DNA of 51,385 nucleotides from Aestuariivirga litoralis. Lineage in GTDB: Bacteria; Pseudomonadota; Alphaproteobacteria; Rhizobiales; Aestuariivirgaceae. The position numbers were made by a program, and so were the translations under genes. Numbering within the stretch: position 1 is the stretch's first letter; each line of letters starts with the position of its first letter. Below the pieces are notes generated by a model that did no database searches, was not told the DNA's origin, and worked only from the letters and a program-made list of their open reading frames with translations. The DNA lies in NCBI RefSeq assembly GCF_003234965.1, contig NZ_QKVK01000014.1:1-51385 (forward strand). The letters run 5' to 3'. This document shows positions 12,256 through 45,534 of the stretch, in pieces.

Positions 12256-12261
12256 CTCACC

Positions 12262-18333: not shown

Positions 18334-18376
18334 AATGACGTACACAAACGATTAGAACAAAACAGGGAGAAGCTCG

Positions 18377-19993: not shown

Positions 19994-20009
19994 GCTGATC
20001 AAACCGGAC

Positions 20010-20039: not shown

Positions 20040-20055
20040 TGTCATTGAGGGCACC

Positions 20056-21003: not shown

Positions 21004-21967
21004 GCGACCACGCCCTGCTCCGCGTCGAAGGCCTGACGGTCGGCTTCAACACGGAGCAGGGACCCGTCCGGGTCACCGAGGATGTCTCCTTCGAACTGAA
21101 GGCCGGCCACACGCTGGGCCTCGTGGGCGAGTCGGGCTGCGGCAAGAGCGTCACGGCGCAGACCATCATGCGCCTGCTGCCGAGCCCCCCTTCGCGCATC
21201 GATGCAGGGCGCATCCTGTTCGAGGGCAAGGACCTCGCCACCGCCTCGCAGCGCGAGATGCAGAAGATCCGCGGCGACCGCATCGGCATGGTGTTCCAGG
21301 AACCGATGACCAGCCTGAACCCCACGCTCCGCATCGGCGAGCAGATCGCCGAGCCGTTGATGCTGCATCGTGGCATGACGCGGGCAAAGGCAGATGAAGA
21401 GGTGGTCAAGGTCCTGAAGCAGGTCGGCATCGGCAATGCCGAACGCCGGCTGCTGCAATATCCGCATGAGCTGTCGGGCGGCCTGCGCCAGCGCGTGATG
21501 ATCGCGATCGCCATCATCTGCAAGCCGCAGCTGCTGATCGCCGACGAGCCGACCACGGCGCTGGACGTAACCATCCAGGCGCAGATCATGGAACTCCTGA
21601 AGGCACTGCAGAAGGAGCTGGGCCTCGCCGTGCTGCTGATCACCCATGACCTCGGCATGGTGGCCGAGATGTGCGAGACCATCGCCGTCATGTATGCCGG
21701 CCGCATCGTCGAGACCGGGCGCACGGCGGATGTCTTCGCCAGGCCGCATCATCCCTACACCCATGGCCTGCTGAACTCCTCGCCGCGCCGTGCGAAGAAG
21801 GGCGAGCGCCTGCCCTCGATCCCCGGACTCGTGCCACCGCCCGGCGCGCGCGGAACTGGCTGCAGCTTCGCCGCGCGCTGCCCCAATGTGCTGGAGCGCT
21901 GCCGGGCCGAAGCGCCGCCGCTGATCCCGCAGGGCAATGATGCCGCCGCCTGCTGGAACCCCATGCC

Positions 21968-21971
<4 letters not shown>
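21000..21971 (+). CDS. ABC transporter ATP-binding protein, dipeptide type (DppD-like)
   Basis: ATPase subunit of 323 residues. Walker A GESGCGKS at 43-50, signature LSGGLRQRV, Walker [13 protein letters not shown], switch histidine in [13 protein letters not shown]. The C-terminal oligopeptide-transporter extension contains [17 protein letters not shown], whose cysteines in some relatives bind an iron-sulfur cluster. It pairs with the next ATPase to energise the importer. Start ATG overlaps the amidase stop as ATGA, and the end overlaps the next start in the same way. Confidence 0.94.
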
Positions 21972-22917
<946 letters not shown>

Positions 22918-22921
<4 letters not shown>

Positions 22922-24111
22922 GGTCGCGCCCGCCGCCTTACGAAGAGCGGCGCATAGACCACGGCGAAGAGCAGGAAGGCCAGCACCCAGCAGGTGGCGG
23001 CGAGGTGGAGGAGCCAGTCCGCCTGCGGCAGCAGTCCAGCTCCCACCCGCGCCAGGGCCGCGGTCGCCGCCAGCACATAGATCCCCGTGATCCGCCAGTC
23101 GGCATGCAGCGGCAGGCCGCTGTGGCCGAGGCTGGCGCGCGTCATCACGGCGAGGGTCATCAGCACGATCGCCCCCACCGTCCAGGTATGGAGCCCCGCG
23201 GATTGCGGCACGGCCTCCGGAAACAGCACGGAGGCTGCCACGGCGAAGAAGCCGAGCGGCAGGAAAAGGTAAGCCAGGTGCAGGATGGCCACCAGCGGTT
23301 CGGCAAGGCTGCGCCAGCCGGCCCAGCGCGACAACCGCCAGAGATTGCCGATGCCAGCAGCCAGCATGGCCAGCGCCGTGGCGATCGAAAGCGGCATGAC
23401 GAGCCACAGCAGAAGGGCAAGGGCGGTGACGGCGATGATCACCTTGTCGTCGCCGTCGAACGGCATCGGCAACACACCGGGCGCACGGCGCACCAGCCAG
23501 TTGCGGGTGAAGCTGGGGATGATGCGTCCGCCGATCACCGCGATCAGCAGCACGGCGCTGGCAAGGCCGATGCGCAGCCCGAGGCTGTCATGCGCGCTTC
23601 CGCCGCTCATCATCTCCGCATGATAGACGGCATTGCCGGCCAGGAGCAGGCCCACCATCAGCAGAACCTTGAGGTTGCGCCAGTTGCGGCCGGCCACGAT
23701 CTCACGCCCCAGCATGAAGATCAGGAGCACGAGAAAGCCGAGGTCGATGGCGGCGGTCGGCAACGGCGGAAGATGGGCGGAAAGGAACACCGCGATGCGC
23801 CCCGCCGCCCAGCTGCACCACAGCACGGCAAGCGGCAGGCCGGTGATGGGCAGCCGCCCCGTCCAGTTCGGCACGGCCGTAAGCATGAAACCCGCCACCA
23901 CGGCGCTCAGATAGCCCCACAGGAATTCATGCGCATGCCACTCCACGGCGCCAAAGGCCGAGGGGATGGACCAGAGGCCGGACAGCGCCCCGATCCAGGC
24001 CAGCATGGCCAAGGCGGCGAACAGCGCCGCGCCGAGGAAGAAAGGCCGGAAGCCGTAGCCGAGGATCTGTGGTCCGGTCCAGGCCCGTATGCGCTGTGCC
24101 GATGTCGTCAT
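22918..24111 (-). CDS. nnrS: NnrS-family membrane protein (nitric oxide stress)
   Basis: Polytopic membrane protein of 397 residues, about twelve helices, of the NnrS family, which protects against nitric oxide and is often in NnrR/NsrR regulons. Visible family marks are the N-terminal GPQILGYGFRPFFLGAALFA, the WHAHEFLWGYLSAVVAGFML segment with histidines that may bind haem and metal, VYHAEMM, GGRIIPSFTRNWL, and the later AVMTRASLGHSG. It starts 17 bases after the hemerythrin-like gene on the same strand, so the two are probably one transcript. It ends in a shared stop with the importer operon. Confidence 0.92.
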
Positions 24112-24128
24112 CTCAACTCACCCCCGGC

Positions 24129-24644
24129 TCACGCCTGGGCGCTGGTGCAGCGTGGCGCAGGGCCGTGTTCGAAGCGCGGAAAGAGGACCTCGTTCTCGAG
24201 CCGCATCTGTTCACGCAACGCGGCGCAGAGTTCCGCCACGCCCTGGTAGAGCCGCCGCCAGGATCCGCAGGCCGCCACCGGCGGCACGAAGTCATGGGCG
24301 AGCTCCTGCACCCTGTCGAGTTCCGCCGCATAATCCTGGTGCTCGGTCCGCATCACGCCGATGGGATGGACGAGCGCGCTGCCGATCTCCTGCTGCATTG
24401 CCCGGAAAACGACCGCCTCCTCGACCTGCATGTGCATGTCGAGTTCCAGCGCCACGTGTTCCAGTGCATCGGCGAGGCCAAGCGGGGCGGCCGGGACGTC
24501 GTGGTGCACGTGCTCGACCTTGCGTGCGAGCGCGATCAGCTCCGGCAGCACCCGCCGGTGCGCCGCCTGGTAGCGCCCGGCGATGAGGGCGAGAAGGTCA
24601 TCGGTGCTCATGGCATGGGCCGAACGGGGGGTGAGGCTGGTCAT
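24129..24644 (-). CDS. Hemerythrin-like iron-sulfur repair (RIC/YtfE-type) protein lacking the N-terminal domain
   Basis: A 171-residue helical protein aligning with the hemerythrin domain of YtfE/ScdA (repair of iron centres), from LPELIALARKVEHVH to LENEVLFPRF. Compared with E. coli YtfE as I recall it, H105, H129, E133, H160 and E208 correspond to H47, H71, E75, H102 and E150. H84 and H204 are replaced by Q26 and Q146, so the di-iron site may be altered. The N-terminal cysteine domain of YtfE is absent, but a related small protein is encoded divergently. An AGGAG six bases upstream supports the start. Confidence 0.87.
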   Translation of the reverse strand: MTSLTPRSAHAMSTDDLLALIAGRYQAAHRRVLPELIALARKVEHVHHDVPAAPLGLADALEHVALELDMHMQVEEAVVFRAMQQEIGSALVHPIGVMRTEHQDYAAELDRVQELAHDFVPPVAACGSWRRLYQGVAELCAALREQMRLENEVLFPRFEHGPAPRCTSAQA

Positions 24645-24697
24645 GGGTCGCTCCTGCGCTGCTCTGCCCCTTCACTAGGGCAAGGGCCGGGAATGGT

Positions 24698-24715
24698 GTT
24701 TGTGCTGGCGCAAAC
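24698..24715. promoter_or_regulatory. Crp/Fnr-type operator 1 (GTTTG...CAAAC)
   Basis: An 18-base palindromic site with core TTGTG-CTGG-CGCAA and outer arms GTTTG/CAAAC. Its centre is about 62 bases upstream of the hemerythrin-like ATG, which would place it near -41.5 if transcription starts near 24665. The form is close to the TTGCG-N4-CGCAA type reported for NnrR-like regulators. Confidence 0.65.
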
Positions 24716-24737
24716 CCGCCCACGACCGCCCCGGAGT

Positions 24738-24751
24738 TTGCGGTCGCGCAA
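24738..24751. promoter_or_regulatory. Crp/Fnr-type operator 2 (TTGCG-N4-CGCAA)
   Basis: Perfect inverted repeat TTGCG-GTCG-CGCAA. Its centre lies 38 bases from operator 1 and about 68 bases upstream of the DUF1858-protein ATG, so a start near 24786 would put it at -41.5 for that gene. The regulator encoded at 25030-25728 is the obvious candidate binder. Confidence 0.68.
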
Positions 24752-24812
24752 TGCCGCGGACCGGCTTCGGCGCTAGACACCATCATCGGGCGGCCTGCCC
24801 ATGGAGTTGAAC

Positions 24813-25025
24813 ATGACGGAACCGAACATCACGCTGGCCACGCCGGTGGATGGCATCATGCGCCGGTGGCCCGCCACCATCAGGTCCTTCCTCGACCACC
24901 GCATGAACTGCCCCGGCTGCCCGATCGCCTGCTTCCACTCGGTGGCCGACGCCTGCCGCGAGCACCATGTGGACGCCGAGGCCTTCCTCGCTGGCCTGCG
25001 TATCCGCACGGCCGAGGCCGCCTAG
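24813..25025 (+). CDS. DUF1858-type small cysteine protein (hybrid-cluster-associated)
   Basis: A 70-residue protein from the ATG at 24813, chosen because a GGAG lies six bases before it; an in-frame ATG at 24801 has no such site. The fold resembles DUF1858 and the N-terminal domain of ScdA/YtfE: a helix (VDGIMRRWPATIRSFLDH), then a cysteine block NCPGCPIACFHSV, then DACREHHVDAEAFLAGL. Such proteins are linked to nitric-oxide or anaerobic regulons. It is divergent from the RIC-like gene, and together they resemble a split YtfE. It ends four bases from the convergent regulator gene. Confidence 0.82.
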   Translation: MTEPNITLATPVDGIMRRWPATIRSFLDHRMNCPGCPIACFHSVADACREHHVDAEAFLAGLRIRTAEAA

Positions 25026-25029
25026 CGCC

Positions 25030-25728
25030 TCAGCCGCCGTGGCCTTCGGCCAGCATGAAGATGCGGTGCGGATCCCTGAGCGTGATCTTCTGGCGCCCGC
25101 TCTCGACGAGGCCGCGCTCCTCCCAGGCGCTCAGCACGCGGCTCACGGTGTGGAGCGTCGCACCCGTCATCTCCGCCACGTCCTGGCGCGAGATCGGGAA
25201 GTCGATCTGGATTCCCGCCTCGACCTTGCGGCCGGACTGCTGGGCCAGCCGCAACAGCGCATGGGCAATACGGCGCTCCACCTGCTCGGTGGACATCTCG
25301 ACCACGCGCGTCTGCGCATCCTGAAGCCTGCTGCCCACGGTGCGCAGCGTATTGGCGAGAAGGGCGGGATAGCGCTCCGACAGGCGCGGCCACACGGCGT
25401 TGGGCCAGACGAGCGCCACGCTGTCCACCACGGCCAGGGCGGTGGCAGGGTAGGTGGAACGGCCCAGCGCCATTGCCACCCCGAAGATTTCACCCGGCGA
25501 AATATAACGCACCACCACCTGCTGGCCGTCCGGCGTCAGGCGGAAGACACGCAGGTGGCCATGCAGCAGGAGATAGAAGAACGCCGCCTCGCGATCCTGC
25601 TGGAAGACTTCGCTGCCCTTGGCATACCGCACCGACTGCGCCTCGCTCAGCACGTCCTGCTGCTGCTCCGGCGTCAGGCCCTGGAAGGCGTCAAGGCTGG
25701 CGATCAGCGATCTGTCGAGTGCAGGCAA
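25030..25728 (-). CDS. Crp/Fnr-family regulator without Fnr cysteines (NnrR/Dnr-like)
   Basis: A 232-residue regulator: a cyclic-nucleotide-fold sensor domain (about 15-130), a long dimer helix (TLRTVGSRLQDAQTRVVEMS), and a winged HTH with recognition segment GATLHTVSRVLSAWEERG. No ATG lies near the family N-terminus. The start is taken as TTG at 25728 because a perfect GGAGG stands five bases before it. The protein has no cysteine, so it cannot hold an Fnr-type 4Fe-4S cluster, which fits haem- or NO-sensing Dnr/NnrR relatives. Its location beside NnrS, the RIC-like protein and two boxes supports control of that group. Confidence 0.88.
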   Translation of the reverse strand: MPALDRSLIASLDAFQGLTPEQQQDVLSEAQSVRYAKGSEVFQQDREAAFFYLLLHGHLRVFRLTPDGQQVVVRYISPGEIFGVAMALGRSTYPATALAVVDSVALVWPNAVWPRLSERYPALLANTLRTVGSRLQDAQTRVVEMSTEQVERRIAHALLRLAQQSGRKVEAGIQIDFPISRQDVAEMTGATLHTVSRVLSAWEERGLVESGRQKITLRDPHRIFMLAEGHGG

Positions 25729-25878
25729 GGCAACCTCCGCGCGCGATGCAGCAGAACCATGACGGCAGAATAGGCGCGATGCGCCGCTTCCCTCAACTCT
25801 TTCCGCCGCGTGTGACGAGTACCATTGCCGCTTCGCCGCAAACGTGCAGAATCGCAGCCGCCTGCCGGAGGCCACATC

Positions 25879-27075
25879 ATGCATCACGCTCCCCACCTCA
25901 CACGCCGTCATCTTCTTGCCCTTGCTGCGGCGACGGTGCTGCCCGCTCCGCTGGCCATGGGCGCCGCCGCAGATGAGCTGTCGCGGCTGCTGGCGGAGCG
26001 CTGGACCGCGCGCTACGGCGGCAAGCCCGGAGGCCTCACGCTGCTGGCACTCACGCCGAGGGGCGATTTCTTCGCAACGACGCTGGAGGGCGTCACGGCG
26101 AAGAGCCATTTCCGTGGCGCCAGCACGACCAAGACCTTCACCGCCGCGGCCATCATGCTGCTGGACCAGCGCGGGCTGCTGAAGATCGATGACGTGCTGA
26201 CCGCCACCATGCCGGGCAAGAGCGAACCCTACCTGCCGGACACACCCGCCTTCGCCATCCCTCACAAGGCAGACATCACCATCCGCCAGCTCCTCAGCCA
26301 CCGTGCCGGCGTCTTCGACCTCGCCAACCAGGACATTCCGGCGGACAAGCCCGTGCCCTATGCCGGCAAGCGCTATGTCGACTGGGCGGTGGAGCAGGAC
26401 GCGCAGCACAGCTTCACCAAGCCGGAGCTGATCGGCGTGGTGGCGGAAACCCAGGTGTCGAACGCCGCGCCGGGTGCGGGCTACGGCTATTCCGACACCC
26501 ACTACACGCTGCTCGGCGAAATCGTTGAACGTGTCTCAGGCCTACCACTCGACCAGTTCAAGCGCACCGAACTGCTGACGCCCAACGGGTTGGACGATAC
26601 GCAGTTCATCATCGATGGCCATACCTCGAAGCTGCCGCCGCCCGCCATCGGCGCCTTCTCGCTGGAGCAGGGAAAAGCCATTCCCATGGATGACTATAAT
26701 TATTCCTATGATCCCGGCTCCGGCAACGTCTTCACCACGCCGGCCGATCTGGTGCGCTGGATCAGGCTGCTGGTGCGCGGCGAGGCGGGCGTCTCGAAGC
26801 CGCAGGTCGCGCGCATGACCGAGGTTTTGCCGGACTCGCATTACGGGCTCGGCCTCTCCACCAAGTCGGCCGGCACCTACGATCTGGGCTATGGCCACAA
26901 TGGCGGCACGCCGGGTTTCCTCACCGACCTCGCCTACAACCCGGCCAATGACATGGGCTATGTGCTGGTCTCGTCGCTCATCGACTTCGACGACCTGCGC
27001 GGGCAACTGGGCTGGATGGACGAGGTCGCGGCAGAGGCCCTGCAGCAGATCGCGAAGGGCCAGGGGGCCGACTAG
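25879..27075 (+). CDS. Serine hydrolase of the beta-lactamase/D-Ala-D-Ala carboxypeptidase family, exported
   Basis: From the ATG at 25879 (CGGAGG seven bases upstream) this is a 398-residue class C-fold hydrolase. The leader has a twin arginine (TRRHLLALAAA, R9-R10) and ends near AMGAAA, suggesting Tat or Sec export. The catalytic SxxK is S82-T-T-K85, the YxN-equivalent is YSD in YGYSDTHY, and the third motif is HNG in GHNGGTPGF. Family members include peptidases, esterases and amidases; a true beta-lactamase cannot be claimed. It is divergent from the Crp/Fnr gene and 52 bases upstream of the methyltransferase operon, which it might feed by releasing an ester- or amide-linked compound. Confidence 0.87.
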   Translation: MHHAPHLTRRHLLALAAATVLPAPLAMGAAADELSRLLAERWTARYGGKPGGLTLLALTPRGDFFATTLEGVTAKSHFRGASTTKTFTAAAIMLLDQRGLLKIDDVLTATMPGKSEPYLPDTPAFAIPHKADITIRQLLSHRAGVFDLANQDIPADKPVPYAGKRYVDWAVEQDAQHSFTKPELIGVVAETQVSNAAPGAGYGYSDTHYTLLGEIVERVSGLPLDQFKRTELLTPNGLDDTQFIIDGHTSKLPPPAIGAFSLEQGKAIPMDDYNYSYDPGSGNVFTTPADLVRWIRLLVRGEAGVSKPQVARMTEVLPDSHYGLGLSTKSAGTYDLGYGHNGGTPGFLTDLAYNPANDMGYVLVSSLIDFDDLRGQLGWMDEVAAEALQQIAKGQGAD

Positions 27076-27127
27076 TCCTGCAGGCACGCTTGCCGCTGCC
27101 GTGGCGCTGGACAATAGTCCCGCGGCA

Positions 27128-28663
27128 ATGACCCGACTGACCCAGAAGCGCCGCAGCCGCCACACCCCCGCCGAAGACGGAAGATCCGCGCCAGCCCGCG
27201 CGCCCTTCATCTCGCGCCAGCTCGACACCTTCAGCGTGCTGTCGCAGGAGGGCCTCGAACTCATCGAACGCAATGCCGACCGCATCCTGCAGGACACCGG
27301 GATGGAGTTTCACGGCGATCCCGAAATCCTCGACATCTTCCGAATGGCCGGCTGCACCGTCGAAGGCGCGCGCGTGCGCTTCGATCCCGGCTTCTGCCGC
27401 AGGACCATTCAGGCCACAGCACCCCGCCAGTTCACCCAGCATGCGCGCAATGCGGCCAACAGCGTGCAGCTCGGCGGCAATGCCACCGTTCTCTGCCCCT
27501 CCTGGGGGCCGCCCTTCGTGCATGATCTCGACCGCGGCCGCCGCTATGCCTCCCACGCCGATTTCGTCGAACTGGTGAAGCTGCACCAGAGCCTGCCCTG
27601 GCTGCACCATTCGGGAGGCGTCGTCTGCGAGCCCGTGGACCTTCCCGCCAACAAGCGCCACCTCGACATGCTCTATGCCCATATCCGCTGGTCGGACCGG
27701 GCCTTCATGGGCGCCTTCATCGGGGCGGAGCGCGCCGGCCACGCCATCGACATGGCGCGCATTCTGTTCGGCGCCGATTACGTGGCCGAACACCCCGTGC
27801 TCTATTGCGTGTCCAACACCAATGCGCCGTTGGTGCTCGATTCGCACATGTCGGGCGCGCTCAAGACCTATGCCCGCGCCAACCAGCCTGTGGCCTGCAC
27901 GCCCTGGGTTCTCACCGGCGCGATGAGCCCCACCACCGTGGCCGGCACGCTGGCCCAGGTGCTGGCCGAGGCCACCGCCTGCCTCGCCCTCGTGCAGCTG
28001 ATCAATCCCGGTGCCCCCTGCCTCATGGGCAGCTTCGCCTCCACCATGTCGATGCAGTCGGGCGCCCCCACCTTCGGCACGCCGGAGGCGGGGCTGATGG
28101 TGCTGGCCGCCGGCCAGCTCGCCCGCCGCCTTGGCGTGCCGCTGCACACGGTGGGAACGCTCTCGGCCTCCAAGCTCCCCGATGCGCAGAGCCAGCAGGA
28201 GGCGGCCTGGGGCCTGCTCATGTCGATGTTCGCCGGCGCCAACCTCATCAACCACGCCACCGGCTGGCTCGAGGGCGGCCTCGTCACCTCCTACGAGAAG
28301 ACGCTGATCGACCACGACATCTGCGGCAAGGTGGCGCGCTTCTTCGACGGCATCGACCTGAGCGAGAACGCCCAGGCGATGGATGCGATCGCACTCACCG
28401 GCCCCGGCCAGCATTTCCTCGGCAGCGATCACACGCGGCTCAACTTCATGTCGGCCCTGTTCCGCCCCTGGACGGCCGACAACAACTCCTTCGAGCAGTG
28501 GCAGGCCGAGGGCGGCAAGGATGCCGCGACGCGGGCCAACGCCCTGTGGAAGAAGCAGCTCGAGCGCTATGAAGATCCCGGTCTCGACCCGGCCATCGAC
28601 GAGGCGCTGAAGGACTACGTTGCGAAGGTGAAATCCTCTATGCCGGATGTGAATTATTTCTGA
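27128..28663 (+). CDS. MttB-family (trimethylamine/quaternary amine) methyltransferase homologue 1
   Basis: A 511-residue TIM-barrel protein of the MttB superfamily, whose known members move a methyl group from a methylated amine to a corrinoid protein. Shared landmarks with the second copy at 47568 are DLPANKRHLD, NTNAPLVLDSHMSGAL, TPWVLTGAMSPTTVAGTLAQ and SMQSGAPTFGTPEAG. There is no in-frame TAG, so it belongs with the non-pyrrolysine group that includes betaine methyltransferases such as MtgB. No corrinoid protein or corrinoid reactivase gene is present in the window. The stop overlaps the next start (TGATG), tying it to two DMGDH-like enzymes. ATG 27128 lacks a strong ribosome site. Confidence 0.88.
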   Translation: MTRLTQKRRSRHTPAEDGRSAPARAPFISRQLDTFSVLSQEGLELIERNADRILQDTGMEFHGDPEILDIFRMAGCTVEGARVRFDPGFCRRTIQATAPRQFTQHARNAANSVQLGGNATVLCPSWGPPFVHDLDRGRRYASHADFVELVKLHQSLPWLHHSGGVVCEPVDLPANKRHLDMLYAHIRWSDRAFMGAFIGAERAGHAIDMARILFGADYVAEHPVLYCVSNTNAPLVLDSHMSGALKTYARANQPVACTPWVLTGAMSPTTVAGTLAQVLAEATACLALVQLINPGAPCLMGSFASTMSMQSGAPTFGTPEAGLMVLAAGQLARRLGVPLHTVGTLSASKLPDAQSQQEAAWGLLMSMFAGANLINHATGWLEGGLVTSYEKTLIDHDICGKVARFFDGIDLSENAQAMDAIALTGPGQHFLGSDHTRLNFMSALFRPWTADNNSFEQWQAEGGKDAATRANALWKKQLERYEDPGLDPAIDEALKDYVAKVKSSMPDVNYF

Positions 28664-31059
28664 TGCCCAGCGTCATCATCATCGGCGGCGGCGCAGTGGG
28701 GCTGAGCGTGGCCTATCACCTGGGCCAGCGCGGCGCCACGGACGTGGTGCTGCTGGAGCGCAACCAGCTCACCTCCGGCACCAGCTGGCACGCGGCCGGC
28801 ATCGTGGGCCCGCTGCGCGCCACCGCCAGCATGACACGACTCGCTTCTCATGCCCTCACCCTCTTCCCGCGCCTCGAGGAAGAGACCGGCATGAGCACCG
28901 GCTATCGCCGCACCGGCGGCTATTGGCTGGCCCGCGTGCCTGAGCGCATGGACGAGCTGACGCGCATCTGCAGCGTCGGCCGCCACATGGGCCTGACGCC
29001 CTCGATCATCGCGCCGCAGGACGTTGCCATTCCGCAGCTTGCCCTCGCCGATCACGTCGGCGCGCTGATGGTGCCGGAGGATGCCAACGTCAACCCGGTC
29101 GATCTCTGCATGGCCTATGCCAGGGCGGCGAAGAACCATGGCGTCATGATCCGCGAGAACACCGGCGTGCGCCGCATCCTCACCCAGCACGGGCGCGCCA
29201 CCGGCGTCGAACTTACCGACGGCAGCACGCTAGCCGCCGACAAGGTGGTGCTCTGCGCCGGTGCCTGGTCGAAGACGCTGGCGGATGCGGCAGGCGTGGC
29301 ACTGCCGCTGCAGGCGGTGGAACACATGTACATCGTCACAGAGCCCATGCCCGGGTTTCCCAACCCCTTCCCCGTGGTGCGCGACCTCGACCGCGGCATC
29401 TATGTGAAGGGTGATGCCGGCCGGCTCGTCATCGGCGGCTTCGAGCCGGATGCTAAGCCATGGGACCCCCAGGGCCCGGAAGGCGACCGCGCCTTCCTCG
29501 AGATGCCGGAGGACTGGGACCAGTTCGCCCCCTTCATGGAAGCGGCGCTCGCCTTGATCCCGCAGCTGGCGGAGACCGGCATCCAGCGCTTCATGAACGG
29601 CCCCGAGAGCTTCACCGCCGACACCCGCCCCTATATCGGCGAGACGCCGGAGGTCGATGGCCTCTATGTCGCCGCCGGCATGAATTCGGTGGGCATCATG
29701 AGTTCCGCCGGCATCGGCGACGTGCTGGCCGACTGGATCATTACCGGCGAAGAGCCGCGCGACCTGTGGGGCGTCGACATCGCGCGTGCCGACCCGAGGA
29801 CGGCCTCTGGCGCGCACATGCGCGAGCGCATGCGCGAGGCGGTATCGGACCTCTTCGCGGTGCACTGGCCCTTCAAGCAGCCGCGTGCCGGGCGCGGCCT
29901 GCGCAAGTCTCCCCTGCATGATCGCTGGGCCGCGCAGGGCGCCGTCTTTGGCCTCACCGTGGGCTGGGAACGCGGCCTGTGGTATGCGCGGAACGAGGCC
30001 GAGCGCGACCTTCCCTATTCGGTGGACGGCGCGCAGCCCTGGCAGGCGCTTGCCGAACGCGAGGCCGCGGTCATGCAGCACGGCGCCGCGCTGCTCGACC
30101 TGACGCCCTTCACCAAGATCGATGTAGCAGGCCCCGACGCCCTGGTGCTCCTCAACCACCTCGCCGCCGCGCAGATGGACGTGGGCATCGGGCGCGCCGT
30201 CTACACGCCGCTGCTCAACTCCAGGGGCGGCATCGAGGCGGACGTCACCGTCACGCGGCTTGCGGCGGACCAGTTCCGCCTCGTCTCCGGTGCTGCCACG
30301 CGCCGCCGCGACCTGGCGCTGCTGCGCCGGGCCGCGAAGGACCGCGACGTCACCATCACGGATCGCACCGAGGACTTCTGCGTCATCGGCGTGATGGGTG
30401 CCGGGTCACGCTCCATGCTTGCGCGGCTCGCCGGGGAGGACTGGACGGATTTTCCCTTCTCCACCTCACGCGCCGCCACCATCGCCGGCGCCACCTGCCT
30501 TGCCACGCGCATTTCCTATGTGGGCGAACTCGGCTGGGAGATCACCATCGCGAACGGAGAGGCGCCTCAGGTCTTCGATGCCCTCATCGCCGCGGGCGCA
30601 AAGCCCATGGGGCACCATGCGCTCAATGGCTGCCGCATCGAAAAGGGCTATCGCCACTGGGGCCATGATCTCGGCCCGGAGATCACGCCGTTGGAGGCGG
30701 GCCTCGGCTTCACCATCGACTGGGCCAAGGACTTCCGCGGCAAGCCCGCACTCGAAAGGCAGAGGCAGCAGGGCCTCACGCAACGGATGGTGCTGCTCTC
30801 GGTCGAGGGCAGCCCGCTGGTGGTGCATGACGAGCCGGTTATGGAACATGGCGCCGTCGTGGGCCTCACCACATCGGGTGCGCGGGGTGCTCGCACCGGG
30901 CTGACGCTCGCCCTTGCACTGGTGAAGGTGGCACCGGGCGAGACCGCCGCCCAAACCGCCCAGCGCAACTTCGAAGTCGAGATCGCCGGATCAAGATACA
31001 AGGCAGCCGTGCTTGCGCGGCCGCCACATGATCCGCGCGGTGAAAGGATGACGGCATGA
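28663..31059 (+). CDS. Dimethylglycine/sarcosine-dehydrogenase-like flavoprotein 1 (FAD oxidoreductase + GcvT)
   Basis: A 798-residue two-domain enzyme. The N-terminal DAO-type FAD domain opens with IIIGGGAVGLSVAYHL, and H43 in SGTSWHAAG is the position where FAD is covalently held in dimethylglycine dehydrogenase. The C-terminal half (from about 430) is an aminomethyltransferase/GcvT-like domain (LLDLTPFTKIDVAGPDALVL, then ISYVGELGWEI), expected to bind tetrahydrofolate and accept the one-carbon unit. It would oxidatively remove an N-methyl group in the cytoplasm. The gene overlaps MttB homologue 1 upstream and a paralogue of identical length downstream, so it probably acts in sequence with them. 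Confidence 0.92.
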   Translation: MPSVIIIGGGAVGLSVAYHLGQRGATDVVLLERNQLTSGTSWHAAGIVGPLRATASMTRLASHALTLFPRLEEETGMSTGYRRTGGYWLARVPERMDELTRICSVGRHMGLTPSIIAPQDVAIPQLALADHVGALMVPEDANVNPVDLCMAYARAAKNHGVMIRENTGVRRILTQHGRATGVELTDGSTLAADKVVLCAGAWSKTLADAAGVALPLQAVEHMYIVTEPMPGFPNPFPVVRDLDRGIYVKGDAGRLVIGGFEPDAKPWDPQGPEGDRAFLEMPEDWDQFAPFMEAALALIPQLAETGIQRFMNGPESFTADTRPYIGETPEVDGLYVAAGMNSVGIMSSAGIGDVLADWIITGEEPRDLWGVDIARADPRTASGAHMRERMREAVSDLFAVHWPFKQPRAGRGLRKSPLHDRWAAQGAVFGLTVGWERGLWYARNEAERDLPYSVDGAQPWQALAEREAAVMQHGAALLDLTPFTKIDVAGPDALVLLNHLAAAQMDVGIGRAVYTPLLNSRGGIEADVTVTRLAADQFRLVSGAATRRRDLALLRRAAKDRDVTITDRTEDFCVIGVMGAGSRSMLARLAGEDWTDFPFSTSRAATIAGATCLATRISYVGELGWEITIANGEAPQVFDALIAAGAKPMGHHALNGCRIEKGYRHWGHDLGPEITPLEAGLGFTIDWAKDFRGKPALERQRQQGLTQRMVLLSVEGSPLVVHDEPVMEHGAVVGLTTSGARGARTGLTLALALVKVAPGETAAQTAQRNFEVEIAGSRYKAAVLARPPHDPRGERMTA

Positions 31060-33452
31060 CGGACGTGAATGTGGTGATCATCGGCGGCGGCGCCATGGGC
31101 TGCTCGCTGCTCTATCACCTCGCCAAGGCGGGCTGGCAGGACATCGTGCTGGTCGAGAAGAACGACCTCACCCACGGTTCCACCTGGCATGCCGCGGGCC
31201 TGTGCACGCACTTCGCCCACAACCCCACGATTCAGGAACTGCGCGCCACCTCGGTGCGGCTCTACCGCGACATCCTGCCTGAGGAGACGGGCGAGAGCTG
31301 CGGCTTCCACCGCTCCGGCGCCATGCGCGTCACCCGTAATCCGGACCGCATGGACGAGTTCCGCCACGTCGCGGGCCTCTCGGAGTTCACCGGCTATCCG
31401 CTCGAGATCATCGACCAGGAGCGCATCGCGGAGCTGCATCCGCTCGCCGTGCGCGATGGCCTGCTGGGCGGCATCTATGAACCCGACGACGGCCATGTCG
31501 ATCCCTCGCTTGCCACCAACGCCATGGCCAAGGTGGCCCAGCGCCATGGCGCGGTGATCCAGCGCTATAACCCCGTGCATTCCATCCATCACGAGAATGG
31601 CCGCTGGGTGGTGGAAACGAAGAACGACACGCTCCGCGCGCTGCACATCGTCAATGCTGCGGGCACCTGGGGCTTCGAGGTCGGCCGCATGATGGGCGTC
31701 AACGTGCCCTCGGTGCCGGTCCTGCACCAGTATCTTGTCACCGACACCGTGCCAGCCATCGCCGAACGCCAGAAGAAGGGCCTGGCCGAGCTGCCCATCA
31801 TCCGCGATCCGGAAGAAAGCTGGTACTGCCGGCAGGAGCGCGACGGCTTCATCCTCGGCCCTTATGAGAAGCAGGCGCAGGTCTGGTCGGTCGATGGCGT
31901 GCCGCCAGAGTTCGGCGCCGAGCTGATGGCGCCGGATCTCGACCGGGTGGAGCACATCATCGAGGCCGCCATGGCCCGCGTGCCCGCACTCGCCACGGCT
32001 GGCGTCAAGACGGTGGTCAACGGCCCCATCACCTTCACGCCCGATGCCAACCCGCTGATCGGCCCCGCCCATGGCGTGCCGAACGCCTGGCTGCTCACCG
32101 GCTCCTCCATGGGCGTGATGGAAGGCGGCGGCGCGGGCAAGTTCCTGGCGCACTGGATGACCCATGGCGCACCGCCCATGGATGCGCTCGCCGTCGACAG
32201 CCGGCGCTTCGGCCCCTGGGCCGATCGGCGCTATCGCGTCGACAAGGCCATCGAATGCTTCGGCCTGCAGTTCGGCGTGCACTATCCCTTCGAGGAGCGC
32301 CCCGCCGCCCGCAACCTGCGCACCTCAGCCTTGCATGAGCTGATGCTGGAGCGCGGTGCGGTGATGGGTGCGGCCCACGGCGCCGAGCGGCCGAACTGGT
32401 TCTCCTCCCGGCCGCATGACGAAACCCGCGACAGCTTCCGCCGCACCAACTGGTTCGAGGCGGTAGCGCGTGAAGTGGACTGCGTGACGAACCGCGTGGC
32501 ACTGGCCGACCTCAGCGTCTTCTCCAAGTTCGACGTCACCGGGCCCGACACGCTGCGTTTCCTCGATGCGCTGGGCGCCAACACGCCTCCGAGGCCAGGC
32601 CGCATCGGACTCACCCACGCATTGACGCCCGCAGGGGGTGTCGCTTCCGAATTCACCGTCACCGTCTTCGCGCCGGAGCGGGCCTATCTCAACTCCGCCG
32701 CCGCGGCGGAGGAGATGGACCTCGACCTGCTCAGGACCCGCGCCCAGGGCTTCGACGTGCGCATTCGCAACCGCACCGATGAACTCGCGGTGATCGGCCT
32801 CATGGGTCCGCGTTCGGGTGACGTGCTGGGGAAGCTGGCCGATGTCACCGGCCTGTCATGGCTCTCGGCACGCGAGATGGACGTGGCCGGACTCCCTGTC
32901 CGCGTTCTACGAGTGTCCTATGTGGGCGAGAAGGGCTATGAGCTCCATCTCGACCGCGCCCATGCTGCGCAACTCTTCCTGGCGCTCGAGGAAGCCGGCA
33001 ACGCTTTCGGCATCGGTCATTACGGGGCCTATGCCGCCAATTCCATGCGGCTGGAAAAGGGCTATCGCGGCTGGGGCATGGACCTGACGACGGAGCGAAC
33101 GCCGCTGGAGACCGGCCTCGCCTTCCTGGTGAAGCCTGACGGCCGCGATTTCATCGGCCGCGATGCCTTGCTGAAGCGCCAGCCCGGCTGGGACATGGTG
33201 CTGCTCGAGATCGACACGGAGGGCGAGGTGGAGCCCTTCTATTCCCACACCGTCTTCGCCGCGGGCCGCCCCGTCGGCGTCGTCACCTCGGGGGCCTTTG
33301 GCCACCGCGTTCGCAAGTCTCTGGCCCTTTCCTTTCTGCGCGAGCGGGATATGCGGGAAGGGCTCACGGTGAAGTTGCTGGGAATCGAGCGGCCGGCCCG
33401 CATCCTCGCCCAGCCGCCCCACGACCCGCAGAACCTCAAGCTCAAGGCCTGA
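31056..33452 (+). CDS. Dimethylglycine/sarcosine-dehydrogenase-like flavoprotein 2 (FAD oxidoreductase + GcvT)
   Basis: Second 798-residue enzyme with the same domain order: FAD domain (VVIIGGGAMGCSLLYHLA, covalent-FAD histidine candidate H45 in GSTWHAAGL), then a GcvT-like folate domain (LADLSVFSKFDVTGPDTLRF, VSYVGEKGYELH, RLEKGYRGWGMDLT). The STWHAAGL motif is closer to mitochondrial DMGDH than that of its neighbour. Sequence differences throughout show old paralogues, not a recent duplication, so different substrates are likely, for example the tertiary and secondary amines of one pathway. It overlaps the first by four bases and is followed 13 bases later by the aminotransferase with a strong GGAGG. 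Confidence 0.92.
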   Translation: MTDVNVVIIGGGAMGCSLLYHLAKAGWQDIVLVEKNDLTHGSTWHAAGLCTHFAHNPTIQELRATSVRLYRDILPEETGESCGFHRSGAMRVTRNPDRMDEFRHVAGLSEFTGYPLEIIDQERIAELHPLAVRDGLLGGIYEPDDGHVDPSLATNAMAKVAQRHGAVIQRYNPVHSIHHENGRWVVETKNDTLRALHIVNAAGTWGFEVGRMMGVNVPSVPVLHQYLVTDTVPAIAERQKKGLAELPIIRDPEESWYCRQERDGFILGPYEKQAQVWSVDGVPPEFGAELMAPDLDRVEHIIEAAMARVPALATAGVKTVVNGPITFTPDANPLIGPAHGVPNAWLLTGSSMGVMEGGGAGKFLAHWMTHGAPPMDALAVDSRRFGPWADRRYRVDKAIECFGLQFGVHYPFEERPAARNLRTSALHELMLERGAVMGAAHGAERPNWFSSRPHDETRDSFRRTNWFEAVAREVDCVTNRVALADLSVFSKFDVTGPDTLRFLDALGANTPPRPGRIGLTHALTPAGGVASEFTVTVFAPERAYLNSAAAAEEMDLDLLRTRAQGFDVRIRNRTDELAVIGLMGPRSGDVLGKLADVTGLSWLSAREMDVAGLPVRVLRVSYVGEKGYELHLDRAHAAQLFLALEEAGNAFGIGHYGAYAANSMRLEKGYRGWGMDLTTERTPLETGLAFLVKPDGRDFIGRDALLKRQPGWDMVLLEIDTEGEVEPFYSHTVFAAGRPVGVVTSGAFGHRVRKSLALSFLRERDMREGLTVKLLGIERPARILAQPPHDPQNLKLKA

Positions 33453-33465
33453 CGGAGGAGTTCGC

Positions 33466-34776
33466 ATGAAAGACGCCCTCGACATCGACTGGACGGTTGA
33501 AGAGACGGCCCGCCGCCGCAACACCTACTACGCCGCCTCGCAGCGCAAATTCGTGCCCTTCAAGGACCCGCTGGTCTTCCGCAAGGGTTCCATGCAGTAC
33601 CTGTGGGATGCGGAAGGCAAGAAATACACCGACCTCCTGGGCATGAATGTCTGCATCTCGGTGGGCCATTCGCACCCCACCGTGGTCAATGCGGCCATGG
33701 CCCAGGCGCAGGAACTCACCCACTGCACCACCATGTTCTACCACCCCGTTCCGGCCCATTTCGCCGAGGAACTCGCCGCCACCATGCCGCAGGGCGAAGA
33801 GTGGGTGGTGCACTTCACAAACTCGGGCTCGGAAGCGATCGACCTCGCCATGGTGATGGCGCGCACCTATACCGGCAATCTCGATCTCCTGGCGCTGCGC
33901 ACCGCCTATCACGGCCCCACTTCCGCCGCGCAGTCGCTGACCGGCATTGCCGGCTTCCGCCACCCCGGCATGCCGGGCAACGTCGCCTTCGTGGCGGAGC
34001 CCAACCAGTATCGCGGCATCTTCGGGCCGGGCACCGAGCCCTATCTCGACGAGATCGAGCGCACCATCGCCAGCGCCACCACCGGCAGGGTGGCGGGCAT
34101 CTTCGTCGAAAGCGTGCAGGGCTATGGCGGCATCGTGGAAATGCCCAGGGGCTACATGTCGGGCGCGGCCGAGCGGGTGCGCGCCGCAGGCGGGCTTTAC
34201 ATAGCCGACGAAGTGCAGTCCGGCTTCGGCCGCACCGGCGACAACATGTGGGGCTTCGAGGCCGATGGCGTGGTGCCGGACATCGTGGTGATGGCCAAGG
34301 GCATCGGCAATGGCTTCCCGCTGGGCGCGGTGGTGGCGAAGAAGGCCATCGGCGACGTGATGGCGGAGAAGTTCATGTTCCACACCTATGGCGCCAACCC
34401 GACGAGCTGCGCGGCAGGCCGCGCCGTGCTTCAGGTGATCCGCGAGGAAAAGACGCAGGAGAATGCCCGCCAAGTCGGCGGCGCGCTGCTGGCCCGCCTC
34501 AAGGACCTGCAGCAGAAGCACGCGTCCATCGGCGACGTGCGCGGCCGCGGCCTGATGCTGGCGATCGAGATGGTGAAGGACCGCCGCACCAGGGAGCCCG
34601 ATGCGGGCGTCACCGCCGCGGTGTTCGAAAACTGCCGTGCCCAGGGCCTCATCCTGTCGAAATCCGGGCCGCACCGCTCGGTATTGCGCATGGTGCCGCC
34701 GATGTGCCTGTCGATGGCGGATGTCGAGGTGGTTGCCGAAGGCATCGACCGCGCCTTCACGGAGGTCACGGCGTGA
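33466..34776 (+). CDS. Class III PLP aminotransferase (AGXT2-like)
   Basis: A 436-residue omega-amino-acid-type aminotransferase. GGAGG lies seven bases before the ATG. Family landmarks are SVGHSHPTVVNA, HFTNSGSEAIDLAMVMAR, the cofactor aspartate in ADEVQSGFGRTG, and the PLP lysine K278 in VVMAKGIGNGFPLG. Related enzymes include alanine-glyoxylate aminotransferase 2, beta-alanine or GABA transaminases and ethanolamine-phosphate lyases; the exact reaction is not fixed. It follows three demethylating enzymes, so its likely substrate is the primary amine left after full N-demethylation. The stop overlaps the next start (GTGA). Confidence 0.92.
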   Translation: MKDALDIDWTVEETARRRNTYYAASQRKFVPFKDPLVFRKGSMQYLWDAEGKKYTDLLGMNVCISVGHSHPTVVNAAMAQAQELTHCTTMFYHPVPAHFAEELAATMPQGEEWVVHFTNSGSEAIDLAMVMARTYTGNLDLLALRTAYHGPTSAAQSLTGIAGFRHPGMPGNVAFVAEPNQYRGIFGPGTEPYLDEIERTIASATTGRVAGIFVESVQGYGGIVEMPRGYMSGAAERVRAAGGLYIADEVQSGFGRTGDNMWGFEADGVVPDIVVMAKGIGNGFPLGAVVAKKAIGDVMAEKFMFHTYGANPTSCAAGRAVLQVIREEKTQENARQVGGALLARLKDLQQKHASIGDVRGRGLMLAIEMVKDRRTREPDAGVTAAVFENCRAQGLILSKSGPHRSVLRMVPPMCLSMADVEVVAEGIDRAFTEVTA

Positions 34777-35525
34777 GTCACCCCATCATCGCGCTGTGGT
34801 CGCACCCGCGCTCGATGTCCACCGCCTTCGAGCGCATCATGCGCTCGCGTGGCGACCTCGACTGCCTGCATGAACCCTTCATGTATGATTACTACGTCAA
34901 CCGCTCCACCCGGCAGATGCCGCACTTCGATGCGAAGGACGATCACCCGCGCAGCTATGACGCCATCCGCGCCATGATCCTGGCCAAGGCCAAGCGCGGC
35001 CCCGTTTTCTTCAAGGACATGAGCTACTATGTCGTGCCGCACCTGCTTGCGGACGAGATTTTCTTCAACCGCATCACCCACAGCTTCCTCGTCCGCGACC
35101 CGCGCGCATCGATCCTGTCCTATGCCAAGCTCGACCCGGACATGCTGTGCGAGGAAATCGGCCTCGAGGCGCAGTGGCGCCATGCCGAGGCGGTGATGGC
35201 GCAGACCTGCAGGCCGCCCGTGGTGGTGCGCAGCGAGGCGGTACAGGCCGACCCGCAGGGGCAGATGGCGCACTACTGGGCGGCAGTGGGCCTTGCCCCC
35301 AGGCCGGAGGCCCTGCACTGGGACGATCCTGCCCCGGCCGACTGGCAGCAGGTGCAGGGCTGGCACGGCGAGGTCATGGCGAGCAGCACCATCCGCCCCA
35401 TCACGCCTGAACAGCAGGCCCGAAGCGAAGCGGAATTCGAGTCATTGGCCGAGGGGCAGCCCAGGTTCAGGGCCTATCTCGACCACCACCTGCCTTTCTA
35501 CCAGCGCCTCCTCGCCTTCGCCTGA
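34773..35525 (+). CDS. Sulfotransferase-family protein
   Basis: A 250-residue protein starting at GTG 34773 inside the aminotransferase stop (GTGA), so it is translationally coupled. The 5'-phosphosulfate loop is visible as WSHPRSMSTAFER (residues 9-21) and the 3'-phosphate region as FLVRDPRASILSY, which places it in the PAPS sulfotransferase fold (the branch with SxSTAFER). No signal peptide, so cytoplasmic. Its role in an amine-degrading operon is not clear: it may sulfate a hydroxylated intermediate, or the fold may be used for another transfer. Earlier codons of the same frame lie within the aminotransferase gene and are not counted. Confidence 0.85.
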   Translation: MSHPIIALWSHPRSMSTAFERIMRSRGDLDCLHEPFMYDYYVNRSTRQMPHFDAKDDHPRSYDAIRAMILAKAKRGPVFFKDMSYYVVPHLLADEIFFNRITHSFLVRDPRASILSYAKLDPDMLCEEIGLEAQWRHAEAVMAQTCRPPVVVRSEAVQADPQGQMAHYWAAVGLAPRPEALHWDDPAPADWQQVQGWHGEVMASSTIRPITPEQQARSEAEFESLAEGQPRFRAYLDHHLPFYQRLLAFA

Positions 35526-35590: not shown

Positions 35591-36124
35591 ATGGCTCGCC
35601 CGCAGATCCGTCCTTCCATCTTCATAGCCCTGCAGAACGGGCTTGCCTCGCTGCTGTTCCTGGCGCTGCTGGGCGCCGAGACGGTGCGCCGCCTGCTTTA
35701 TCACCACCCCCAGTCAGAGCTTCTCTGGCAATTCTCGACCCTGGCAAACCGCACGGTGATGCCGGTGCTGCGCTACTGCGAGCAGCTGTTGCCGGATCCC
35801 GACAGGCTCATGCTGGGGCTGGCGGCGGGCGTGGTCATCCCGCTGCTCGCCTGGTGGACGCGCTACTGGTTCGCCACCGCGCTTGCCGGGCACGTGCTGC
35901 TGGGCGGCCTCGTCGTCATCACATATTCCGTGTTCAGCAGGGGTAACCTGGCGCTGGCCACGCTGGACCTGCCGGAGGAACTGGCCACGCTTCATCCTGG
36001 CCTCGCCGGCTATGTCCTGCTGGCCCTCACCCTCTTCGTCCTGGTGATGTGCATTGCCGATCATGTCGCATTTCTGAGATATCTCGCCTCGCTCCGGAAA
36101 CATTTCGGCGGGAGAAGCCGCTAG
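35591..36124 (+). CDS. Hypothetical membrane protein
   Basis: A 177-residue protein with about four hydrophobic helices (around 12-32, 70-90, 95-118 and 140-165 from the ATG at 35591). I do not recognise it. A GTG at 35570 in the same frame is an alternative start; neither has an ideal ribosome site. A few conserved-looking elements are seen (ETVRRLLYHHPQSELLW, WWTRYWFATALAGHVLLG). It lies 65 bases after the sulfotransferase gene and 55 before the kinase gene, on the same strand, so co-transcription is possible but not shown. Confidence 0.65.
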   Translation: MARPQIRPSIFIALQNGLASLLFLALLGAETVRRLLYHHPQSELLWQFSTLANRTVMPVLRYCEQLLPDPDRLMLGLAAGVVIPLLAWWTRYWFATALAGHVLLGGLVVITYSVFSRGNLALATLDLPEELATLHPGLAGYVLLALTLFVLVMCIADHVAFLRYLASLRKHFGGRSR

Positions 36125-36179: not shown

Positions 36180-37205
36180 ATGTACGGAACGGGAATGACA
36201 GCCTTCAACCTGCTGGCGCATGACGAACAGATGCGGATCCTCCACGATCTCGCCCTGCGTGCACTGGCCCTTTACCCGCTTCCGCCCGGCACCACAGCGA
36301 AACTCCTGAACCTCTCGGAAAACGCAACCTACCGCATCGATGCGCCCGATGGCCGCCGCTGGGCGCTGCGCGTTCACCGCGACGGCTACCAGTCGGACAT
36401 GGCCATCGCCTCCGAGCTTGCCTGGGCCGTTGACTTGCGGCGCAGTGGCATCGCCGTGACGCCCAATCCCATCCACGGGCGTGACGGCGCACTGGTCCAG
36501 TCCGTGCCGGACGCGCGCATGGCCTCGCCGCGGCGCGTCGTCCTCTTCGACTGGGAAACCGGCGCCGAGCCGGGGATCACCGATAATCTCACCCATTCCT
36601 TCGCAGCCCTGGGCGAGATCGCGGCCCGCATGCATGTCCATGCCCGGCGGTGGCAGCGGCCCCAATGGTTCACGCGCCATACCTGGAACTTTGACACGGC
36701 GCTGGGGGAAGACCGGCCCCACTGGGGCCGCTGGCGTGACGGCATCGGCATGGACGGCGAGAAGCGGCGACTTTTCCAGCGAACTGTTGACCTCATCGGA
36801 CGGCGGCTCGCCGCCTATGGCATGGGCCGTGAGCGCTTCGGTCTCATCCATTCCGACCTGCGCCTCGCCAACCTGCTGATTGACGGCAGCACCGTGAAGG
36901 TCATCGACTTCGACGATTGCGGCTTCAGCTGGTACATGTATGACGCTGCAACACCCGTCTCCTTTTATGAGCATGAGCCCCAGGTGCCGGAACTGATCGA
37001 GCACTGGAAGGCGGGCTACCGCAAGGTGCTGCCCTTGTCGCAGGAAGACGAGGCGGAGATCCCCACCTTCGTGATGCTCCGCCGCATCCTGCTCGTGGCG
37101 TGGATCGCCTCCCACATCGAGGCGGAATTCCCGAAGTCGCTGGGGGCCGGCTACACCGATGGCACCCTGCCGCTGTGCGAGGATTATATGCGCCGCTTCG
37201 GTTAG
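36180..37205 (+). CDS. APH-fold phosphotransferase (homoserine/hydroxylysine-kinase-like)
   Basis: A 341-residue small-molecule kinase of the aminoglycoside-phosphotransferase fold. The catalytic loop is LIHSDLRLANLLID (H224, D226) and the metal-binding DFD-type motif is VIDFDD. An in-frame ATG at 36195 is an alternative start. Relatives phosphorylate homoserine, choline, hydroxylysine or antibiotics. Because it follows an AGXT2-like aminotransferase, a hydroxyamine substrate is plausible, but this is inference. The TAG stop overlaps the convergent regulator's stop by four bases. Confidence 0.85.
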   Translation: MYGTGMTAFNLLAHDEQMRILHDLALRALALYPLPPGTTAKLLNLSENATYRIDAPDGRRWALRVHRDGYQSDMAIASELAWAVDLRRSGIAVTPNPIHGRDGALVQSVPDARMASPRRVVLFDWETGAEPGITDNLTHSFAALGEIAARMHVHARRWQRPQWFTRHTWNFDTALGEDRPHWGRWRDGIGMDGEKRRLFQRTVDLIGRRLAAYGMGRERFGLIHSDLRLANLLIDGSTVKVIDFDDCGFSWYMYDAATPVSFYEHEPQVPELIEHWKAGYRKVLPLSQEDEAEIPTFVMLRRILLVAWIASHIEAEFPKSLGAGYTDGTLPLCEDYMRRFG

Positions 37206-37813
37206 GCGCTCAGTACGGCAGTGAGCGTGCGCCGGCACAGGTCCTTGGCGCGGTCGAGCGACAGCAGGCTCTGGTCGATGCATTGTTCGAGCCACAGCCC
37301 ATCGACCAGCGAAATGACGATGGTGGCGACGTCATAGCTGTCCACCGTCACGCCCTGGCCGCGGGCGAAGGCGGAGATCGCCCGCGCAATGCGCTCGCGG
37401 TAGAGCGCATAGTTCTTGCGGTGCTCCACCTGCAGCACCGGGTTCACCGCGATCTCGCCCCACAGCGCGAGCCAGACATTGAGATAGTCGCGGCTGAGGA
37501 AACTGTCGGCGAACATCATGTCGACGAGTTCGTCGATGCTCTGCGGCGTGGTTTCGGCCCGGTCGAGGTTGTCCAGCACCTTGCCGTAGATCGAGGCGTA
37601 GGCGGCCGCGAGCAGCGCATTCTTCGAACCGAAGTGGTGCGTGATGAGCCCGCGCGAGGTGCCGGCCTCATGGCAGATGTTATCAACCGTGAAGCCCTGG
37701 ATGCCGCCCTTGGCGAGGCAGGCGATCGACGCCGCGATCAGCCGTGCCCGGCGCTCGTCGGGAGCGATGCGTTCGAACTTGGGTGCCGCTGCTTTCTTGG
37801 TCATCGTCGTCAT
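37202..37813 (-). CDS. TetR-family regulator, BetI-like
   Basis: A 203-residue repressor. The N-terminal HTH runs through RARLIAASIACLAKGGIQGFTVDNICHEAGTSRGLITHHFGSKNALL, broken here by motif: recognition helix near TSRGLITHHF. The C-terminal ligand domain (WLALWGEIAVNPVLQVEHR, VISLVDGLWLEQC) resembles BetI, the choline sensor of betaine operons. It lies after the binding-protein gene on the minus strand, separated by a hairpin, and may be read from the same long transcript. It is a candidate to control the importer/CocE and TMADH-like arms at the 45.2-45.5 kb operators. Confidence 0.88.
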   Translation of the reverse strand: MTTMTKKAAAPKFERIAPDERRARLIAASIACLAKGGIQGFTVDNICHEAGTSRGLITHHFGSKNALLAAAYASIYGKVLDNLDRAETTPQSIDELVDMMFADSFLSRDYLNVWLALWGEIAVNPVLQVEHRKNYALYRERIARAISAFARGQGVTVDSYDVATIVISLVDGLWLEQCIDQSLLSLDRAKDLCRRTLTAVLSA

Positions 37814-45519: not shown

Positions 45520-45534
45520 ACAGTGGGCGAACCG

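Follow-up and report, generated by a model that had tools for sequence, protein, structure and literature searches.

The closest described relatives of the locus considered here are systems built around non-pyrrolysine methyltransferases of the MttB superfamily. The known substrates of these enzymes are reported to carry a carboxylate, with the exception of phosphocholine, and in Eubacterium limosum choline needs to be phosphorylated before it is demethylated by an MttB homolog (PMC12155760). In Ruegeria pomeroyi, a shared corrinoid subunit encoded elsewhere serves a PF06253 protein and also functions in methionine synthesis (PMC12478193). Class III pyridoxal phosphate (PLP)-dependent lyases acting on amino alcohols or their esters are known as well (PbfA; PMC8154272). 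Here we describe a group of genes from Aestuariivirga litoralis located in a stretch of 51,385 nt, hereafter called the window (NCBI RefSeq assembly GCF_003234965.1, contig NZ_QKVK01000014.1, positions 1–51,385, forward strand), in which an MttB-like methyltransferase, two flavoproteins related to dimethylglycine dehydrogenase (DMGDH) and a class III PLP enzyme are encoded one after another and are followed by a sulfotransferase. The four-gene arrangement exceeds chance and is one conserved unit, and we propose, with a probability of about 0.6, that these genes form a conserved module for the breakdown of a quaternary ammonium compound.

The four genes occupy positions 27128–34776 of the plus strand, and the Pfam searches confirmed every family to which their products had been assigned in a first-pass annotation of this DNA. 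The first gene (27128–28663) encodes a full-length, non-pyrrolysine member of the MttB superfamily (511 aa; PF06253, 650.7 bits, profile positions 5–500 of 500, 1.2e-195) without an in-frame amber codon, i.e. without any internal stop; its start was placed at ATG 27128, with another in-frame ATG at 26891. The best PDB matches (search from residue 2) are 4yyc (6.4e-176), followed by 2qne and the glycine betaine methyltransferase 9yce (both about 1e-102). The products of the second (28663–31059) and third (31056–33452) genes, flavoproteins 1 and 2, each of 798 aa, align end to end with DMGDH and exhibit both the DAO, FAO_M, GCV_T and GCV_T_C domains and the WHAAG motif by which that family is recognized; the histidine of the motif presumably binds flavin adenine dinucleotide covalently. 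Flavoprotein 1 finds DMGDH 4pab as its best PDB match (3.4e-112, with WHAAG aligned), while flavoprotein 2 matches 5l46 (4.9e-195), which we take to be the human DMGDH. Identity to 5l46 amounts to 42% for flavoprotein 2 and 31% for flavoprotein 1, the former value being the highest among six host proteins compared, namely the two flavoproteins and four of their seven paralogs (all except L150, L152 and L153). The fourth gene (33466–34776) encodes a class III PLP enzyme of 436 aa (PF00202, Aminotran_3, 5.2e-84), whose nearest solved relative is an ethanolamine-phosphate phospho-lyase. The junctions are exactly as had been annotated: the MttB and flavoprotein 1 genes overlap by one base at 28663 (TGATG), the two flavoprotein genes by four bases at 31056–31059 (ATGA), and the PLP gene starts with ATG 33466 after a 13-base gap (33453–33465) that contains GGAGG and resembles a ribosome-binding site. 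The gene set itself had been drawn too short by one gene, since a fifth, encoding a sulfotransferase of the 3'-phosphoadenosine-5'-phosphosulfate (PAPS) type (34773–35525, plus strand, 250 aa; Sulfotransfer_5, PF19798, 2.1e-10), begins with a GTG inside the stop codon of the PLP gene (GTGA, 4-base overlap).

Searching named genomes with the PLP protein as query gave 201 relatives, and the best 80 loci (73–95% identity), all chosen by PLP protein similarity, were kept. They belong mostly to Alphaproteobacteria, with a few Granulosicoccaceae and one member of Chromatiales, which we take to be Gammaproteobacteria. Where at least 9 kb are available upstream of the PLP gene, which is the case in 67 loci, 65 contain the complete set of four (the other 13 were dropped from this count, and two of them likewise hold all four genes); the exceptions are L058, whose genome encodes a 72% identical flavoprotein 2 ortholog on contig C23, and L082. 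Thus, the outcome that would have told against the first annotation, four genes rarely together, is not what is found, at least for close relatives of the PLP gene. The arrangement is colinear as in the window in 36 of the 65 complete loci, in 28 the flavoprotein genes are divergent from the MttB-PLP pair, and one locus is organized otherwise. In the 28 divergent loci (e.g. L016, L020, L047), MttB is just 50–56% identical to its counterpart from the window and the flavoproteins and the PLP enzyme are 65–84% identical, as if two types of MttB served one downstream path.

A LysR-type gene accompanies the module in 61 of the 80 loci. In the window no such gene was detected (no tblastn match better than E 0.2), and a beta-lactamase-like gene ends 52 bases before the MttB gene (gap 27076–27127); in L009 and L010 a LysR gene sits between these two, and in L011 none was seen. 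OpuAC-type binding proteins are encoded in 14 of the 80 loci (11 with one type, 6 with another, 3 with both), the commoner type matching 4xz6 and OpuAC, and on the Mesorhizobium plasmid NZ_CP083957 an annotated glycine betaine ABC transporter adjoins the homologous genes. A TauD-type gene, which resembles FrbJ and more weakly TmpA, lies next to the LysR gene in L017 and L021; it was set aside as a candidate member of the module, as it was found in only these two of the 80 loci.

The four genes are almost always together, mostly accompanied by a LysR gene and in some loci by a betaine transporter of the OpuA type, and the module is therefore best and most economically read as a stepwise N-demethylation that ends in removal of the amine. 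MttB would pass the first methyl group to a corrinoid protein whose gene lies at another place in the genome, and the second and third would be removed oxidatively by the two flavoproteins of the DMGDH type, with the carbon going to folate. The PLP enzyme would then remove the nitrogen from the resulting primary amine, leaving an aldehyde, while the PAPS-type sulfotransferase may sulfate a hydroxyl group, either in the substrate or in an intermediate. The order of the reactions, the substrate class and all catalytic activities are in this scheme predictions. Of the pathway as originally suggested, the stepwise demethylation of a quaternary amine is retained on the strength of the conserved unit, the OpuAC proteins and the betaine transporter; transamination as the final step is not supported.

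On contig C12, the host genome encodes an MtgC-like corrinoid protein, with three more MttB genes in the vicinity. No match to this protein was found in the window or in the 80 loci. Of 39 genomes that carry the PLP gene, 38 have a close ortholog of it (the exception is G320). Orthologs that are present but unlinked fit a shared corrinoid subunit acting in trans, as in R. pomeroyi. The window contains also a second MttB gene (47568–49109), which overlaps by 4 bases the gene of a flavoprotein combining old yellow enzyme and pyridine-nucleotide-oxidoreductase domains (45322–47571) and is followed by a gene for an Amidohydro_3 protein (49189–51006); the region 45322–49109 looks like another demethylation unit.

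The PLP enzyme was initially called an aminotransferase, and betaines of omega-amino acids were suggested as the starting compounds. Neither assignment is favored by the comparisons. The best PDB matches of the enzyme are phospho-lyases (6tor, 3.3e-85; 5g4i, 4.8e-71), its best NCBIfam matches are PRK06148 and PRK06149, and in a tree of 21 sequences (with long-branch warnings, rooted at midpoint only, and with PbfA outside it) the family forms one group with 6tor and 5g4i (support 99/99), apart from GabT, PuuE, PatA, a racemase and one PLP paralog. Among the sequences compared, Asn61 is common only to the enzyme and the phospho-lyases, differing in GabT, PuuE and PatA, and position 151 is Pro in all 79 aligned orthologs, as opposed to Arg in GabT and PuuE. 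The catalytic Lys278 is present. On the other hand, the residues His65, Arg90, Lys408 and Lys/Arg410 shared by both solved phospho-lyases, which probably bind the phosphate there, are replaced throughout the 79 orthologs by Ser, Met, Arg and Val, respectively. Arg408, found also in GabT, PuuE and PatA, is thereby kept in place of the Lys of both phospho-lyases, so that transamination is conceivable. Grouped with the phospho-lyases but devoid of their four shared residues, the enzyme may be a lyase or a transaminase, and judging by its sequence it is concluded to be neither a proven phospho-lyase nor a GABA-type transaminase. The predicted structural model was of middling quality (predicted local distance difference test, pLDDT, 78), and nothing was drawn from it. 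It is nevertheless conceivable, if on balance doubtful, that the substrate is a betaine demethylating to an omega-amino acid (beta-alanine betaine, gamma-butyrobetaine, or carnitine, which would yield 4-amino-3-hydroxybutyrate), with the PLP enzyme acting as a true transaminase and the sulfotransferase being incidental or a side branch. Arg408, the missing charges at positions 65, 90 and 410, and the carboxylate that marks nearly all known non-pyrrolysine MttB substrates would agree with such a betaine; Pro151, Asn61 and the position of the enzyme in the tree disagree with it, and the sulfotransferase, which follows the module between genomes, is left without explanation.

The sulfotransferase shows the features of its family: in 12 sequences H11, P12, R13, S14, S16, T17, R108, P110, S113, I114 and S116 are invariant, and the motifs HPRS.ST and R.P..SI.S, which we take to bind the 5'-phosphate (P-loop) and the 3'-phosphate, respectively, are present. 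With the predicted model (pLDDT 88), Foldseek gave 42 matches with E<=0.001, all of them sulfotransferases except the kinase 3adb, at modest TM-scores (0.33–0.52 by query); no substrate is named by any PDB sequence match. The gene lies within the flanks of 33 of the 80 loci, in several positions and orientations. From the 47 loci without it, 37 in 36 genomes were tested (two of these loci, L031 and L085, not showing the full module), and a close ortholog is encoded elsewhere (E<1e-90) in 28 of the 36 genomes. Twenty of these 28 were opened in stretches of 3.7–16.8 kb: four lie in the same cluster just past the flank, two beside OpuA-type transporter genes, and 14 have no module gene near. Within one family, represented by 198 genomes, the sulfotransferase (E<=1e-90) and the PLP gene (E<=1e-150) occur in 11 genomes each and together in 10 (hypergeometric P 6e-15, a value that ignores kinship). 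Four of these ten (G290, G296, G398, G458) carry the two genes on separate contigs, and the surroundings of the sulfotransferase gene show no module gene; G464 has contigs that appear to be fragments of a single cluster; in G518 the sulfotransferase gene is beside those of MttB and the flavoproteins, and a 62–63% PLP gene is elsewhere; in the remaining four both are on one contig. G331 has the sulfotransferase and neither the PLP gene nor a close flavoprotein 2 ortholog. Among 289 genomes of the class, the host alone matches the sulfotransferase at E<=1e-90, and three others match at 1e-31 to 1e-46. The co-occurrence with the PLP gene, four times on separate contigs, suggests a hydroxylated and O-sulfated substrate over a plain omega-amino-acid betaine, and we infer that the sulfotransferase takes part in the same process as the module.

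Homologs of the sulfotransferase are found also in other surroundings. A second subfamily (32–39% identical) belongs to another operon, comprising genes for a Rieske oxygenase, a DMGDH-like flavoprotein, an RpiR regulator, an arylmalonate decarboxylase (AMDase)-like protein, a zinc-dependent alcohol dehydrogenase and the sulfotransferase (loci L159, L160, L162, L163, L164 and L167, with an aldehyde dehydrogenase in L164 and L167). All six genes are present in five of the ten loci opened, L163 lacks matches to the flavoprotein and the regulator, two loci contain just the sulfotransferase and AMDase-like genes, and two represent a third, solitary group. Neighbors of the unlinked sulfotransferase genes gave no lead to the function, the recurring ones appearing in four or five of 17 loci compared and resembling, as judged by eye and without a search, hflK/hflC, a protease and an oxidoreductase. 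Four further homologs are encoded on Streptomyces plasmids; the one opened lies in a nonribosomal peptide synthetase region, which fits just a tailoring-type sulfotransferase.

Several observations weigh against this reading of the module. Eight of the 36 genomes tested are without a close sulfotransferase ortholog, five having a homolog at 1e-42 to 1e-47 and three at 1e-25 to 1e-27. The genome of L082 (G389) has the PLP gene without the module: it shows no match to flavoprotein 2 above 39% and no close sulfotransferase. In L174, L175 and L176, too, the PLP gene is alone at its locus; in these three loci and in L082 the PLP relatives are 49–76% identical and no close MttB or flavoprotein gene adjoins. 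The presence of corrinoid orthologs is weak evidence for the module, given the role of the R. pomeroyi subunit in methionine synthesis, and with nine MttB and nine FAO_M matches in the host genome such families may serve many substrates.

Could the sulfotransferase take the place of a kinase in such a pathway? It might sulfate the hydroxyl of a choline-like or carnitine-like quaternary amino alcohol, thereby providing MttB with an anionic substrate, and after three demethylations the PLP enzyme might split the resulting vicinal amino sulfate by eliminating ammonia together with sulfate, in the way the phospho-lyases eliminate phosphate. With sulfate in place of phosphate, a lyase akin to the phospho-lyases would find a fitting substrate in the demethylated amino sulfate. 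We regard this route as unlikely. The phospho-lyase-like PLP enzyme, which has Arg408 and lacks the charges shared by the phospho-lyases, agrees with it, as do the sulfotransferase gene at varied positions in 33 loci and its co-occurrence across genomes, the second subfamily, whose operon includes genes for a DMGDH-like protein and a Rieske oxygenase, and the phosphorylation of choline in E. limosum. However, PAPS is a costly activator for catabolism, the PDB sequence matches of the sulfotransferase offer no substrate, and the host has betA (830 bits) and the choline sulfatase gene betC (734 bits), by which choline and choline sulfate already have ordinary routes; upon finding them, the idea that the only substrate is choline or its sulfate was downgraded, and together with the eight genomes without a close sulfotransferase they speak against a simple choline version. 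A generalization, by which aerobic bacteria open up quaternary amino alcohols by O-sulfation with a PAPS sulfotransferase, demethylate them with MttB and flavoproteins, and employ the PLP enzyme as a sulfo-lyase that splits off sulfate and ammonia and yields an aldehyde, is offered here just as a speculation, slightly less probable still.

An ordinary route from glycine betaine to glycine, with the PLP gene as an accidental neighbor, would agree with the comparatively high identity of flavoprotein 2 to DMGDH, but the PLP gene stays with the other three in nearly all loci (chosen, as noted, by the PLP protein) and glycine requires neither a class III PLP enzyme nor a sulfotransferase, which makes this route very improbable. 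Least probable of all is a phosphate-activated route, in which the APH-family kinase encoded at 36180–37205 would phosphorylate an amino alcohol and the PLP enzyme would be a phospho-lyase: it was the first reading, prompted by the phospho-lyase matches and by this kinase, which is close to 6ef6 (5e-80; presumably an aminopropanol kinase) and aligns with the opposite end of PRK06149, as if the two were halves of a fusion, and it was dropped because the kinase, which in a system of the MthK/MthB type should regularly accompany the MttB gene, adjoins the module in only 3 of the 80 loci and the four positions common to both solved phospho-lyases are not kept.

Downstream of the sulfotransferase, the window contains a small hydrophobic open frame (35591–36124, plus strand, 177 aa, grand average of hydropathy 0.66, no Pfam match), the APH-family kinase gene on the plus strand, a convergent gene for a TetR regulator with a BetI-type C-terminal domain (37202–37813, minus strand) and genes for a dipeptide-type ABC transporter (37855–43170, minus strand; binding protein at 37855–39411, two ATPases, two permeases). 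The hydrophobic frame, the kinase, the TetR gene and the binding protein gene are beside the module only in L009–L011, so that the kinase is doubtful as a member. Elsewhere in the window, Tad/Flp pilus assembly genes (T2SSF twice, T2SSE, secretin, RcpC/CpaB) are found at 7544–15090 on the minus strand, dipeptide-type ABC transporter genes, with an FmdA/AmdA-type amidase gene between those of the binding protein and the ATPases, at 16562–22921, and genes for NnrS, a hemerythrin and a cyclic-nucleotide-binding, Crp-type regulator, possibly related to nitric oxide, at 22918–26502 on the minus strand. At another locus of the host genome (L091, contig C24), a putative B12-binding protein gene adjoins a frame that we take to resemble bacteriochlorophyll synthesis proteins; the host may thus be an anoxygenic phototroph.

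As the nine MttB matches in the host illustrate, such bacteria may have numerous MttB genes without an assigned substrate, and a transferable module leading from a quaternary amine to ammonia would fill one of these gaps; the sulfotransferase, if it acts in the path, would represent an unusual use of sulfation in catabolism. The component families are known; their combination was not found in full-text searches of openly licensed papers, a collection that leaves most subscription journals outside, and the one paper listed in a related search concerns cold-seep methane (PMC8547467).

Compared with the systems described so far, the locus shows both likenesses and differences. The flavoproteins share the domain order and the WHAAG motif with DMGDH, but they occur as two in tandem, at 31% and 42% identity to 5l46. 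The PLP enzyme is on the same tree branch as the ethanolamine-phosphate phospho-lyases 6tor and 5g4i and has the same Asn at position 61, but differs at positions 65, 90, 408 and 410. With the non-pyrrolysine methyltransferases of the MttB superfamily (MtgB, MtcB, MtyB, MtpB, MthB) the locus shares a full-length PF06253 protein without an in-frame stop and, as a candidate partner, a corrinoid protein encoded in the genome, whereas no corrinoid gene is at the locus and the later demethylations are apparently carried out by the two flavoproteins. The MtgBCD system of R. pomeroyi comes from the same bacterial class, pairs a PF06253 protein with one corrinoid protein encoded elsewhere and has predicted dimethylglycine and sarcosine demethylation steps, too; in A. 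litoralis the MttB gene goes with those of two DMGDH-like flavoproteins, a PLP enzyme and a sulfotransferase, and neither a comparable PLP enzyme nor a sulfotransferase was noticed in the consulted part of the R. pomeroyi description (PMC12478193). The closest precedent found is the MthB/MthK choline pathway of E. limosum, in which the hydroxyl is activated before the MttB step, as it possibly is here; that pathway employs a kinase and phosphocholine, operates in an anaerobe and ends at the dimethyl compound, whereas the module from A. litoralis has a sulfotransferase, flavoproteins and a PLP enzyme instead (PMC12155760).

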